13,615 nt of DNA. It comes from Clostridia bacterium. Its GTDB lineage: Bacteria > Bacillota > Clostridia > Monoglobales > Firm-18. Below are positions 9,718-10,861 of the stretch, in pieces (the stretch's first letter is position 1; the number at the start of each line of letters is the position of its first letter). The notes under the pieces were generated by a model. That model saw only the letters and a program-made list of their open reading frames with translations. It searched no databases and was not told the DNA's origin. The translations under genes were made by a program, and so were the position numbers. The stretch is taken from contig JAFQVC010000066.1 in assembly GCA_017408205.1 (NCBI GenBank), forward strand, positions 1 through 13,615, read 5' to 3'.

Positions 9718-9743
9718 AAAAACCACCCAATCGGGTGGTTTTT
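9718..9743 (+). terminator. Intrinsic terminator of the CxxC gene
   Basis: An 11-bp stem (9718-9728 with 9733-9743, core CCACCC/GGGTGG) has a 4-nt AATC loop and ends in TTTTT. It starts 7 bp after the stop codon. A-rich sequence before the stem would give a T-run on the opposite strand too. Confidence 0.9.
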
Positions 9744-9947
9744 GCTAAATCAGAATAATGTAGATGCAATTAAAATTTAGCTAAATTTTGCAGCAAGCTG
9801 CAAAGCGAAATTATTGCTTCGCAATAGCTAAATAACTCCTTTGGAGTAGCTAAATTAAATTCGCTTTCAGTGTGCGTAGCACATTTAGCTGCCGCAGGCA
9901 ATTTAGCTGAGCTTGCTCAATTTAGCTCGCAGAACGCGAATTCAGCT
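9743..9947. repeat. Array of seven mini-hairpins joined by an ATTTAGCT linker
   Basis: This 205-bp non-coding stretch is built of short perfect or near-perfect inverted repeats, each with a different stem and a 2-5-nt loop. They are TTTGCAGC-AA (9787-9804), ATTGC-TTC (9813-9825), ACTCC-TTT (9835-9847), TGTGC-GTA (9871-9883), TGCC-GCA (9890-9900), TGAGC-TT (9908-9919) and TCGC-AGAAC (9927-9939). Between them recurs one octamer. It reads AGCTAAAT on the left (9779, 9826, 9848, and a variant at 9743) and ATTTAGCT on the right (9883, 9901, 9920, and ATTCAGCT at 9940). On the right the period is 18-20 bp. An 18-bp perfect palindrome, AAAATTTAGCTAAATTTT, lies at 9772-9789. I know no named family for it. 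It lies between two terminators of convergent units. Confidence 0.8.
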
Positions 9948-9948
9948 G

Positions 9949-9988
9949 AAAAAAAGACAGATTTCTTTATCGAAATCTGTCTTTTTTT
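9949..9988. terminator. Strong bidirectional intrinsic terminator
   Basis: A 17-bp perfect stem (9949-9965 with 9972-9988) encloses a 6-nt loop, with seven A on the left and seven T on the right. It can end transcription from either side. On the - strand it directly follows the second copy of the tRNA-Gln 3' end, as the terminator at 10091-10115 follows the real tRNA. Confidence 0.85.
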
Positions 9989-9989
9989 C

Positions 9990-10009
9990 TGGTTGCCGAA
10001 CTAGGATTC
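9990..10009 (-). repeat. 20-bp exact duplicate of the tRNA-Gln 3' end
   Basis: TGGTTGCCGAACTAGGATTC here is identical to 10123-10142, which on the - strand encodes the 3' half of the T-arm, the 3' acceptor strand and the CCA of tRNA-Gln. The copies are 133 bp apart in the same orientation. The match stops inside the T-loop, a common crossover position for tRNA-targeting integrases, but no integrase is nearby. Some similarity also extends across the terminators (TGTCTT at 9978 and 10110). It could be a relic attachment site or the remains of a tandem tRNA duplication. Confidence 0.8.
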
Positions 10010-10072
10010 CCCAAAGGGCCGGTCGGCTCACCTTCATCTGCCACCGGCAGCGGTTCGCCTCCTTCGAATCCT
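10003..10072 (-). other. GC-rich foldable segment between the two tRNA-tail copies
   Basis: Positions 10010-10066 are about 68% G+C by my count, in contrast to AT-rich DNA around. Several small stems can form: CTGCC/GGCAG (10038-10042 with 10046-10050, loop ACC), GCCG/CGGC (10018-10021 with 10024-10027), CCC/GGG (10010-10012 with 10016-10018). An outer 7-bp stem joins 10003-10009 with 10066-10072. No convincing gene is seen. It may be a structured RNA, part of a dispersed repeat, or the remains of an inserted element. Confidence 0.5.
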
Positions 10073-10090
10073 TTTCAATTTATTACCAAC

Positions 10091-10115
10091 AAAAAAAGAC
10101 ACCAAAAGGTGTCTT
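10091..10115 (-). terminator. Intrinsic terminator of tRNA-Gln
   Basis: On the - strand an 8-bp stem AAGACACC/GGTGTCTT (10115-10108 with 10103-10096) with a TTTT loop ends in seven T, 8 nt after the tRNA CCA. An outer 9-bp stem (10085-10093 with 10118-10126) can also form and would include the CCA positions. Confidence 0.88.
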
Positions 10116-10122
10116 CGTTTGT

Positions 10123-10196
10123 TGGTTGCCGAACTAGGATTCGAACCCAGACAAACAGAGTCAGAGTCTGTCGTGCTACCTTTACACAATTCGGCA
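10123..10196 (-). tRNA. tRNA-Gln (anticodon CTG)
   Basis: Folding by eye gives a full cloverleaf. The 7-bp acceptor is TGCCGAA/TTCGGCA with the U1-A72 pair usual for tRNA-Gln. There is a short D-stem GTG/CAC with a GG-containing loop, and an anticodon stem ACAGA/TCTGT with loop CTCTGAC giving anticodon CTG for CAG codons. The variable loop has 4 nt, and the T-stem CTGGG/CCTAG holds TTCGAAT. Discriminator A and CCA are encoded. A near-consensus promoter lies upstream and a terminator downstream, so it is a single-gene unit. Confidence 0.95.
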
Positions 10197-10244: not shown

Positions 10245-10622
10245 TTATTTTTTAAATTTATTAATCCAGTTTAAAATATCTTCAAATTTCATATCTCCTG
10301 ATGCAACAGATAATCCCAAATGAACAACATCCTGATTTGTGCAGTTTATTTTTATACCCTCTGCTTCAAGAAAAGTCAGCATAACATATACGCCAATTCT
10401 TTTGTTGCCGTCAACGAAAGCATGATTGGATATTAAAGAAAAACCAAGGGATGCTGCTTTTTCCTCTTTACTTTTATAAAGTTCCTCTCCGCCAAATGTG
10501 GCATAAGCGTTATTAAGGGCACTTTCCAGAAGTCCTACATCTCTGACGCCAACGCTGCCGCCGGTTTCCTGGGCAATCAGTTGATGTAAAAGCAAAACCT
10601 TTTCTTTACTTAATTTAATCAT
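10245..10622 (-). CDS. doc: Doc-type Fic-domain toxin (death-on-curing family)
   Basis: This 125-aa protein has the size and pattern of Doc toxins. The active-site loop H67-A-F-V-D-G-N-K-R75 fits HxFx(D/N)(A/G)NKR with the catalytic histidine intact. Lys replaces the Gly of AMP-transferring Fic enzymes, as in phage P1 Doc, which phosphorylates EF-Tu and stops translation. That activity here is inferred from the family. The N-terminal part (HQLIAQETGGSVGVRDVGLL) is typical of chromosomal Doc proteins. The ATG overlaps the antitoxin stop by 4 bp, with GAGGAG at 10636-10631 on the - strand. The toxin looks intact. It is co-transcribed with the antitoxin and ends just before the tRNA-Gln promoter. 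Confidence 0.92.
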   Translation of the reverse strand: MIKLSKEKVLLLHQLIAQETGGSVGVRDVGLLESALNNAYATFGGEELYKSKEEKAASLGFSLISNHAFVDGNKRIGVYVMLTFLEAEGIKINCTNQDVVHLGLSVASGDMKFEDILNWINKFKK

Positions 10623-10861
10623 TTTGCCAACTCCTCAAATGCAGGTTTGAATCTTTGCAAAATTCTTTTTGCTGCTACATCAATTTTTTCGTCGTCGGTA
10701 ATATGGAAATATGAATTTGAATCTATGTCAATAAGCAGAAATTTCGGCTTGTTGTTTTTAAATATAACTGCCTGACCGTTACTTTCAGCAACTCTTGCAA
10801 CCTTTGAAAAATTCTGGTTTGCCTCTGTCATGGTAGTAATTGTTTCAGTATTTATATTCAT
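10619..10861 (-). CDS. phd: Phd/YefM-family antitoxin
   Basis: This 80-aa protein has the Phd/YefM pattern: an N-terminal DNA-binding part (TMTEANQNFSKVARVAESNG), then a strand with QAVIFKNNKPKFLLID, and a polar C-terminal tail that would bind and mask Doc. Antitoxins of this kind also repress their own operon, with the toxin acting as co-repressor at some ratios. AGGAGG lies just upstream of the ATG at 10861. The promoter is consensus and is embedded in a long palindrome, as expected for self-repression. It is the first gene of the pair and overlaps doc by 4 bp. It follows spo0A in the same direction without a visible terminator. Confidence 0.88.
   Translation of the reverse strand: MNINTETITTMTEANQNFSKVARVAESNGQAVIFKNNKPKFLLIDIDSNSYFHITDDEKIDVAAKRILQRFKPAFEELAK

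Follow-up and report, generated by a model that had tools for sequence, protein, structure and literature searches.

What is a row of mini-hairpins, joined by a shared linker, doing downstream of a tRNA gene, and how did it come to be there? The question arises in a window of 13,615 nt (the whole stretch of DNA that was analysed) from a Clostridia bacterium. The initial annotation described seven hairpins with unlike stems and a linker that flips orientation between the two halves, placed between two terminators. Both descriptions can be read directly from the window: the hairpins and linkers occupy positions 9775-9947, and inverted repeats stand at 9718-9743 and 9948-9989, the latter belonging to the mobile unit.

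The array in the window

The sense strand of the array is the minus strand of the window. The features are listed in sense-strand order, beginning with the tRNA gene.

10123-10196, minus strand: tRNA-Gln (CTG), upstream of the unit and on the same strand
9990-10009, minus strand: 20-nt copy of the tRNA-Gln 3' end (original at 10123-10142), adjoining the unit
9740-9993, minus strand: putative mobile unit of CCA copy (9990-9992), terminator hairpin, array and tail, deduced from a 97% identical copy elsewhere
9948-9989, minus strand: terminator-like hairpin H8, GAAAAAAAGACAGATTTC..GAAATCTGTCTTTTTTTC, a perfect 18-bp stem that travels with the unit
9775-9947, minus strand as sense: hairpin array, with its 172-nt core at 9776-9947, between two terminator-type inverted repeats
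9940-9947, minus strand: linker 1, AGCTGAAT on the sense strand, read directly
9927-9939, minus strand: hairpin TCGC/agaac/GCGA, sense TCGCGTTCTGCGA
9920-9927, minus strand: linker 2, AGCTAAAT, read directly
9908-9919, minus strand: hairpin TGAGC/tt/GCTCA, sense TGAGCAAGCTCA
9901-9908, minus strand: linker 3, AGCTAAAT, read directly
9890-9900, minus strand: hairpin TGCC/gca/GGCA, sense TGCCTGCGGCA, with a TNC-type loop on the sense strand
9883-9890, minus strand: linker 4, AGCTAAAT, read directly
9871-9883, minus strand: hairpin TGTGC/gta/GCACA, sense TGTGCTACGCACA
9848-9864, minus strand: centre, sense GCGAATTTAATTTAGCT, forward AGCTAAATTAAATTCGC, near-invariant in 70 aligned copies
9834-9848, minus strand: hairpin ACTCC/ttt/GGAGT, sense TACTCCAAAGGAGTT
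9827-9833, minus strand: right-half linker ATTTAGC
9812-9826, minus strand: hairpin TATTGC/ttc/GCAATA, sense TATTGCGAAGCAATA, with a GNA loop on the sense strand
9804-9811, minus strand: right-half linker variant ATTTCGCT (ATTTCGC)
9787-9804, minus strand: hairpin TTTGCAGC/aa/GCTGCAAA, from its 5' end TTTGCAGCAAGCTGCAAA, sense TTTGCAGCTTGCTGCAAA
9775-9786, minus strand: last linker, here a palindrome, ATTTAGCTAAAT
9744-9769, minus strand: tail TTGCATCTACATTATTCTGATTTAGC, directly downstream of the array, like the sequence after some IVP stop codons
9718-9743: terminator-type inverted repeat on the other side of the array

On the sense strand, four AGCTAAAT(T) linkers (the first being AGCTGAAT), each followed by a hairpin, lead to the centre GCGAATTTAATTTAGCT; after it come three hairpins, each with a reverse linker behind it (ATTTAGC, ATTTCGC and ATTTAGC). 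As read directly, the linkers are AGCTAAAT in the left half, with one copy AGCGAAAT, and ATTTAGCT in the right half, with ATTCAGCT as the last copy. The centre, absent from the initial annotation, is the best-conserved part of the array in an alignment of 69 of the 79 non-redundant copies plus the window. The 5' arm of the hairpin at 9927-9939 and its linker match the centre too, an alternative long-range pairing. The limits of the unit come from a local alignment with the copy in G327:C26, which spans window positions 10006-9739 and takes in terminator and tail; the flanks beyond differ. The unit adjoins the 20-nt copy of the tRNA-Gln 3' end, not the tRNA-Gln gene itself, and the window copy contains no ORF, hence no IVP gene.

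The linker pattern is rarely matched by chance: the 6-mer occurs four times in each orientation within 9743-9947, which only one of 2000 dinucleotide shuffles equals. The same stretch holds eight hairpins of at least 4 bp (shuffle mean 4.3), and other stretches of the window also give seven to nine; since 42 of the 2000 shuffles reach eight, we do not use the plain hairpin count as proof.

Dispersal in Clostridia

The initial annotation held that other copies should be looked for, and they exist. A BLAST search of the window's own genome finds a second copy at 80% (G000:C186). Among relatives, copies occur in 11 of 60 genomes, the own genome included (38 rows, with up to 91% identity in another family), and class-wide the array is carried by at least 23 of 291, again with the own genome; at most two candidates were scored per genome in the class search, so these counts are lower bounds. 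A pattern based on the centre matches at least 114 stretches, mostly from animal-gut MAGs, with records assigned, among the matches listed, to Clostridia, Clostridiales, Eubacteriales, Oscillospiraceae, Ruminococcaceae or Ruminococcus. Nearly all of the genomes are MAGs, and many are incomplete.

The best copy outside the own genome is 97% identical and lies in G327, which belongs to another order and shares only the class with the window's genome. No tRNA gene was found in the 2-kb stretch of this copy, though a tRNA-end-like piece with CCA precedes it. A CCAGAAA-like sequence flanks it at both ends and is found only loosely in the window copy; no exact target duplication could be defined. 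Because this copy sits in another order between unlike flanks, one fixed site inherited vertically would not explain the spread; misbinned contigs could do so in single cases. Judged by these relatives, the array is one copy of a dispersed mobile element present in many gut-type Clostridia.

IVP genes and linker classes

The gene found beside arrays in relatives is IVP, which matches PF05635 (E = 2.3e-27 and 6.6e-30); its solved relatives, 2rld and 2gsc, have five chains each. Within the order, 21 of 51 genomes have PF05635, and within the class at least 81 of 291, own genome included. For a view from the gene, 100 IVP loci were used (30 of the 38 rows from the order, 30 from the class and 40 further down the class list by rank), 84 of them with full flanks and 92 usable for the linker-array test. 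An upstream tRNA or tmRNA gene no more than 600 nt away shares the strand of IVP at 18 of the 84 loci and is on the opposite strand at one; downstream, the corresponding counts are five and one. An inverted linker array, scored blind to class with a threshold of 3, stands upstream of the gene at 26 of 92 loci and downstream at one, as against 1 of 82 further upstream (the tandem array locus L210) and 1 of 1840 shuffles. Many IVP genes have no such array, since 46 of the 92 loci score only 1. Conversely, IVP stands beside a GCTAAAT array in only five of the 11 array genomes (G000, G001, G008, G040 and G059), and G057 (85% complete) has six array rows with no IVP among the matches listed.

The linkers upstream of IVP carry the labels GCTAAAT, GCGATAT, TCGATAT, TGAAAT, GTGATAT, ATGAAG, GTGATG, ATGATG and CTTCAC; a tenth, TATTCA, comes without clear hairpins. 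Upstream of IVP genes there are at least eight linker classes, with the linkers of both halves changing together from class to class, which argues for intramolecular pairing or for a factor that recognises the class. The classes also follow the ancestry of the protein. On a tree of 44 IVP proteins (45 rows were entered and one short row was lost; unlabelled rows were left out, and five labels, all GTGATAT, were assigned by eye), the ten labels need nine changes, the minimum, whereas the average for shuffled labels is 26.4 and not one of 200 shuffles gets down to nine. Six classes each form one side of a branch, CTTCAC (three rows) takes two changes, and three classes have one row each. Host families are mixed within the TATTCA, GTGATAT, TGAAAT and GCTAAAT clades and unmixed within GCGATAT and TCGATAT. 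As array and IVP gene are physically linked, this agreement speaks for common descent, not for binding; linkage would not, however, account for the joint change of the linkers in the two halves.

A (GC)ATCTATATTGTTCGCCTTTGCCA-like tail follows the IVP stop codon at 11 of 97 loci (four found by pattern and seven by eye), mostly with a terminator-type hairpin behind it: L210, L214, L216, L217, L219, L220, L221, L230, L262, L280 and L298. Nine of these have a tRNA within 600 nt upstream. Arrays lacking IVP end in similar tails, and so look like derivatives that kept both ends. We dropped the idea that the tails are copies of the local tRNA end; by eye, they are alike at different tRNAs.

A known layout invites comparison here. 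REP/BIME repeats are directional hairpin units with inverted halves, moved by a RAYT (Y1) transposase, and a GTAG-type head stands beside the hairpin. The array could be a passenger of this kind, with IVP merely sharing its insertion hot spots. It has directional linker-hairpin units that are inverted between the halves, it is likewise intergenic and non-coding, and Y1 transposases occur in 10 of 15 array genomes. The search with PF01797 in these 15 genomes, some of them incomplete, gave no match in G327 (93% complete), G001 (89%), G000, G049 or G050, however, and the Y1 places listed elsewhere are on contigs separate from the array rows or no nearer than 18 kb. No GTAG-type head was found, the linker being GCTAAAT or another 6-8-mer; seven to eight hairpins with unlike stems share one linker, the recurring gene is IVP and not Y1, and linker class goes with IVP ancestry. 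We therefore rejected RAYT as the mover and regard the passenger reading as highly improbable. The initial annotation suggested looking for a linked transposase or RAYT-like gene; the linked gene is PF05635. A reverse transcriptase was discarded as mover as well, with PF00078 in only 4 of the 15.

Several loci deserve separate mention. At L278, a long run of TTCTGCACTC-type repeats comes right after the IVP stop codon. In other phyla, short tandem repeats such as (TTAGTGA)n, recognised by eye, precede IVP (L329, L331, L332 and L333, from Treponema, Bernardetia, Euhalothece and Nostoc plasmids), possibly a simpler form of the array. On a Monoglobus plasmid (L330), an IVP-encoding stretch separates the hsdS and hsdR genes of a type I restriction system. 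At L036:4308-4763, the NUDIX gene behind the array starts with MGSVDMAESI; the class's own IVP gene also has MAESI, as though the end of the element had taken the place of the NUDIX start. Two unverified faecal phage records (L334, MT835815.1; L335, MT835590.1) have IVP with GTGATA and TGAAAT arrays, one of them behind tRNA-Arg. A link to viruses was set aside: the pattern was seen in one viral contig, and the two phage records were viewed upstream of the gene only.

tRNA genes with and without the array

Neighbours of the array were counted at 133 of 162 distinct places, those flanked by 250 nt in each direction. A same-strand tRNA or tmRNA stands no more than 200 nt upstream of the array at 19 of them, and downstream of it at none; a same-strand IVP gene stands no more than 80 nt downstream at 16 and upstream at one (a fragment at a tandem locus). 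Two places have both neighbours, and most have neither. Distances are narrow: 18 of the 21 tRNA/tmRNA neighbours listed stand at 23-36 nt, and the remaining three, including the window's own, at 158-175 nt. At the sites counted, the orientation of the array relative to the tRNA or tmRNA is fixed.

Filled and empty sites can be compared in the genus of G040 (nine genomes). Behind one tRNA-Ser, G040 has a GCTAAAT array and G046 a GCGATAT-type array, and G026, G028, G033, G034, G045 and G047 (stretch printed) have other sequence after the CCA and no array. One tRNA-Arg is present in six of the nine congeners, three of which have arrays or an IVP element behind it. In G026, four tandem arrays (TGAAAT, GCTAAAT, TGAATT and TGAAAT) are followed by an IVP gene (L168:1190-2460); G045 has an IVP element, plus a TGAAAT array preceded by a repeat of the tRNA 3' end; and G046 has a GCGATAT array. 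G028, G033 and G034 have none. The junction lies at the CCA end of the tRNA. A hairpin near-identical to H8 precedes arrays at other tRNAs, and array-free copies of those tRNAs are followed by other sequence.

The initial annotation had listed an insulator among the possible roles. If the array were host sequence serving to block read-through from tRNA operons, with gene conversion behind the likeness among copies, its place in a convergent gap, after tRNAs and with a strong terminator, would fit; yet in congeners these tRNAs are followed by different sequence without an array, copies stand before IVP and other genes, and arrays of unlike classes occur in tandem. Insulation would be at most a side effect, and as the origin of the array we consider it the most improbable of the readings. 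Since tRNA 3' ends are classic integration targets, an integron-like or integrase-type site, that is, folded recombination sites of a tyrosine recombinase acting at tRNA genes, also has to be weighed. The CCAGAAA-like sequence that brackets the G327 copy and the occurrence of tandem units favour it, but the tail matches tRNA ends only loosely, and IVP is the sole gene found to recur downstream. This reading is improbable, if slightly less so than a REP/BIME passenger.

Other arrangements around tRNAs were also seen. In G034 (L305), a tail-like sequence in opposite orientation (AGCAGAACCAAAGAGATAT) comes right after the tRNA-Arg CCA, without an array. IVP genes lie 64-100 nt upstream of tRNA-Leu at L259, L261, L272 and L202, the reverse of the usual order. 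In the window, positions 9990-10122, between tRNA-Gln and the unit, have similar stretches in G004:C9, G004:C8 and G005:C18, one similar stretch standing just before an IVP gene (L228); this looks like a second tRNA-end repeat family. Beside tRNA-Gln is a Fic/DOC gene (10245-10861), with a Phd-like gene (below the Pfam cut-off) upstream of it.

Stems, loops and the building block

The initial annotation proposed that stem identity is free and complementarity kept, and the copies bear this out. Compensation was measured on 86-89 arrays per slot, cut to 39-60 distinct hairpins, and compared with arms dealt between arrays. In the five variable slots, the outer four positions are Watson-Crick paired at fractions of 0.93, 0.90, 0.90, 0.83 and 0.88 within an array and of 0.40, 0.52, 0.49, 0.56 and 0.56 when dealt. 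With 83-93% against 40-56%, related loci do not lose complementarity freely; stem identity is, to judge from these slots, free while pairing is kept. The sixth slot is nearly constant (0.96 within, 0.92 dealt). Pairing may also extend across the array: within one array, the linker plus first arm and the reverse complement of the centre have 5-13 nt in common (mean 9.2, as against 5.0 between classes) over the 25 of 27 labelled loci used, the linker itself making part of the within-class score.

The loops follow rules of their own, mirrored between halves. Across 111 parsed arrays, with near-copies included and the tally taken from the 25 commonest loops, sense-strand loops are TNC or TNNC in at least 222 of 344 left-half hairpins and GNA or GNNA in at least 117 of 274 in the right half, where TT (30), AAA (29) and AA (15) also occur. 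When distinct hairpins are read in the polarity of their unit (loops of 2 or 5 nt omitted), GNA accounts for 80 of 130 triloops and GNNA for 53 of 89 tetraloops. DNA mini-hairpins follow a GNNA loop rule. Those with GNA loops are reported to be extraordinarily stable in work listed among the references of PMC6479982.

The CTTCAC class reverses the polarity of the linker as well as the type of loop, with left loops GNNA (4) and GNA (1) and right loops TNC (1) and TNNC (2), small numbers; since they flip jointly, the building block looks like a directional unit of linker plus hairpin. At L112:1239-1530, the unit AGCTAAATT-CGCCTGACGGCG stands in many amplified tandem copies ahead of an IVP gene, as though arrays could lengthen one unit at a time.

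DNA or RNA

The initial annotation held a DNA-level role to be as likely as an RNA role. We favour a DNA-level role over an RNA-only one: the loops are mirrored, GNRA is not clearly preferred to GNYA, mismatches show little bias toward one strand, and some classes have promoter-like sites in the gap before the gene. The competing reading is a structured RNA, namely a minus-strand transcript, either the leader of the IVP mRNA or a free RNA, that controls IVP or is itself the mobile form.

Transcription through the array has some backing. Promoter sites were scored as consensus matches only, with shuffle controls. TA(T/G/A)AAT(A/G) occurs within 50 nt upstream of the array at 28 of 133 places, with 5.5 expected from shuffles and two found at 200-250 nt, and a -35/-10 pair within 80 nt upstream at 19 of 133 (7.3 expected); some of the 133 places have a promoter-type box and a hairpin before the array. 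The IVP start lies 2-32 nt behind the array at GCTAAAT, GCGATAT, TCGATAT and GTGATAT loci, and the 12 GCTAAAT loci have gaps of 6-27 nt without a promoter site. In the GCTAAAT, GCGATAT and GTGATAT classes, with boxes before the array and no promoter site between array and gene, the array may therefore be transcribed. Promoter-like sites do occur in this gap in the TGAAAT (4 of 5 loci, 1.2 expected), TATTCA (5 of 6, 1.5 expected) and CTTCAC (3 of 3, 0.4 expected) classes, so the array is probably not always part of the IVP transcript, which favours a role in DNA.

The structure points the same way. The array folds as RNA with z -2.3, with linker-linker pairing, and as DNA with z -2.9. In an RNA, GNRA loops and G-U pairs would be expected to be favoured. 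Besides being mirrored between halves, the GNNA tetraloops divide into 24 GNRA and 29 GNYA, and isolated mismatches comprise 18 G-T, 11 A-C and 22 others, at most a weak lean toward RNA. Rfam gave only the tRNA for the window at gathering score, with no match for the array; ten loci searched at E up to 0.5 yielded tRNA and tmRNA, with SSRC34_2 (at a terminator) and Gut-1 (within one array) below the gathering score. A known RNA family was accordingly rejected. As a mobile form, an RNA would be at odds with the rarity of reverse transcriptases in array genomes; in its favour, a section of PMC10053308 likens IVP to Avd, which is required for retrohoming of DGRs. Altogether we think a structured RNA rather unlikely, though well ahead of the other alternatives.

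Comparison with known systems

The initial annotation knew of no described element with this layout, and our searches of an open-access library turned up nothing that describes arrays of this kind or IVP genes placed after tRNAs. CRISPR was dismissed: the linkers repeat but flip orientation, and the spacers are self-palindromic. IVP is listed among genes in cas loci in part of PMC3936711.

Structure is conserved despite sequence variation in integron attC sites. The array shares this property and differs from attC in architecture. MITEs are short, non-coding, dispersed derivatives of gene-bearing elements. Dispersed, similar, non-coding copies are what we find here, apparently derived from a gene-bearing element, but without demonstrated transposase-type terminal repeats or target duplication. 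The PF05635 family resembles the DGR accessory protein Avd in the account of PMC10053308 cited above. Unlike DGRs, the arrays come with no described variable repeat, and 11 of 15 array genomes have no match to the reverse transcriptase family RVT_1 (PF00078), among them G059 (100% complete).

The closest likeness is to the intervening sequences (IVSs) of 23S rRNA, which passages of PMC4990558 portray as small, selfish, sporadic and horizontally spread, equipped with an S23/IVP gene and with strong inverted repeats. Their place is within 23S rRNA helices, whereas the arrays stand behind tRNA or tmRNA genes or before other genes, and the array element adds multiple hairpins and class-specific linkers. 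The S23/IVP ORF is present in relatives with the same array and lacking in the window copy. No 23S rRNA location was found, the window giving only a tRNA in Rfam and the copies lying by tRNA/tmRNA or protein genes; because that location defines an IVS, we do not file the window element as one, and it may nevertheless work like one.

Proposed mechanism

The sequence comparisons show dispersal, fixed orientation behind tRNAs, the link to IVP, compensation and linker classes spanning both halves; from them we infer binding by IVP, a single-strand intermediate, action in trans and origin by gene loss. We propose, with moderate confidence, that the array is the cis-acting, non-coding end of an IVP-encoding mobile element that settles behind the CCA of tRNA and tmRNA genes and elsewhere. 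A complete tRNA-linked element reads, in the direction of the tRNA, tRNA-CCA, terminator hairpin, inverted array, IVP (S23), tail and a further terminator. The window copy would be a non-autonomous derivative that lost IVP and retained both ends.

When one strand is exposed, the array would fold into a tree of mini-hairpins with GNA/GNNA loops and class-specific linkers. An IVP of the same class (its solved relatives have five chains) could recognise linkers and hairpins on the exposed strand and, with host polymerases or recombinases, bring the folded element to sites that bear hairpins, such as tRNA terminators. Host enzymes would copy or join it there, and the terminator that it carries would keep the tRNA transcript intact. 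Among the families searched in the 15 array genomes (Y1, PF01797, and reverse transcriptase, PF00078), no recombinase was identified.

Significance

The best reading of the tRNA-associated, IVP-encoding element is a new kind of mobile element. The array itself offers a natural example of linker, loop type and layout being conserved when the stems are free to change in sequence. By analogy, the likeness of IVP to Avd suggests an architectural role with nucleic acid. More tentatively, and with clearly less confidence than in the proposal for the array, a nuclease-free four-helix-bundle IVP may use an inverted array of self-renewing DNA mini-hairpins with class-specific linkers as an address code that directs the element to positions behind tRNAs and to other hairpin sites, the 23S IVSs being one branch of such elements. 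How S23/IVP intervening sequences of rRNA spread is an old open question: the relevant passages of PMC4990558 call the functionality and origin of IVSs unclear, and treat their mobility as unexplained and a theory only. Elements with IVP that have a readable linker code, variants, filled and empty tRNA sites and copies without IVP make this spread testable.
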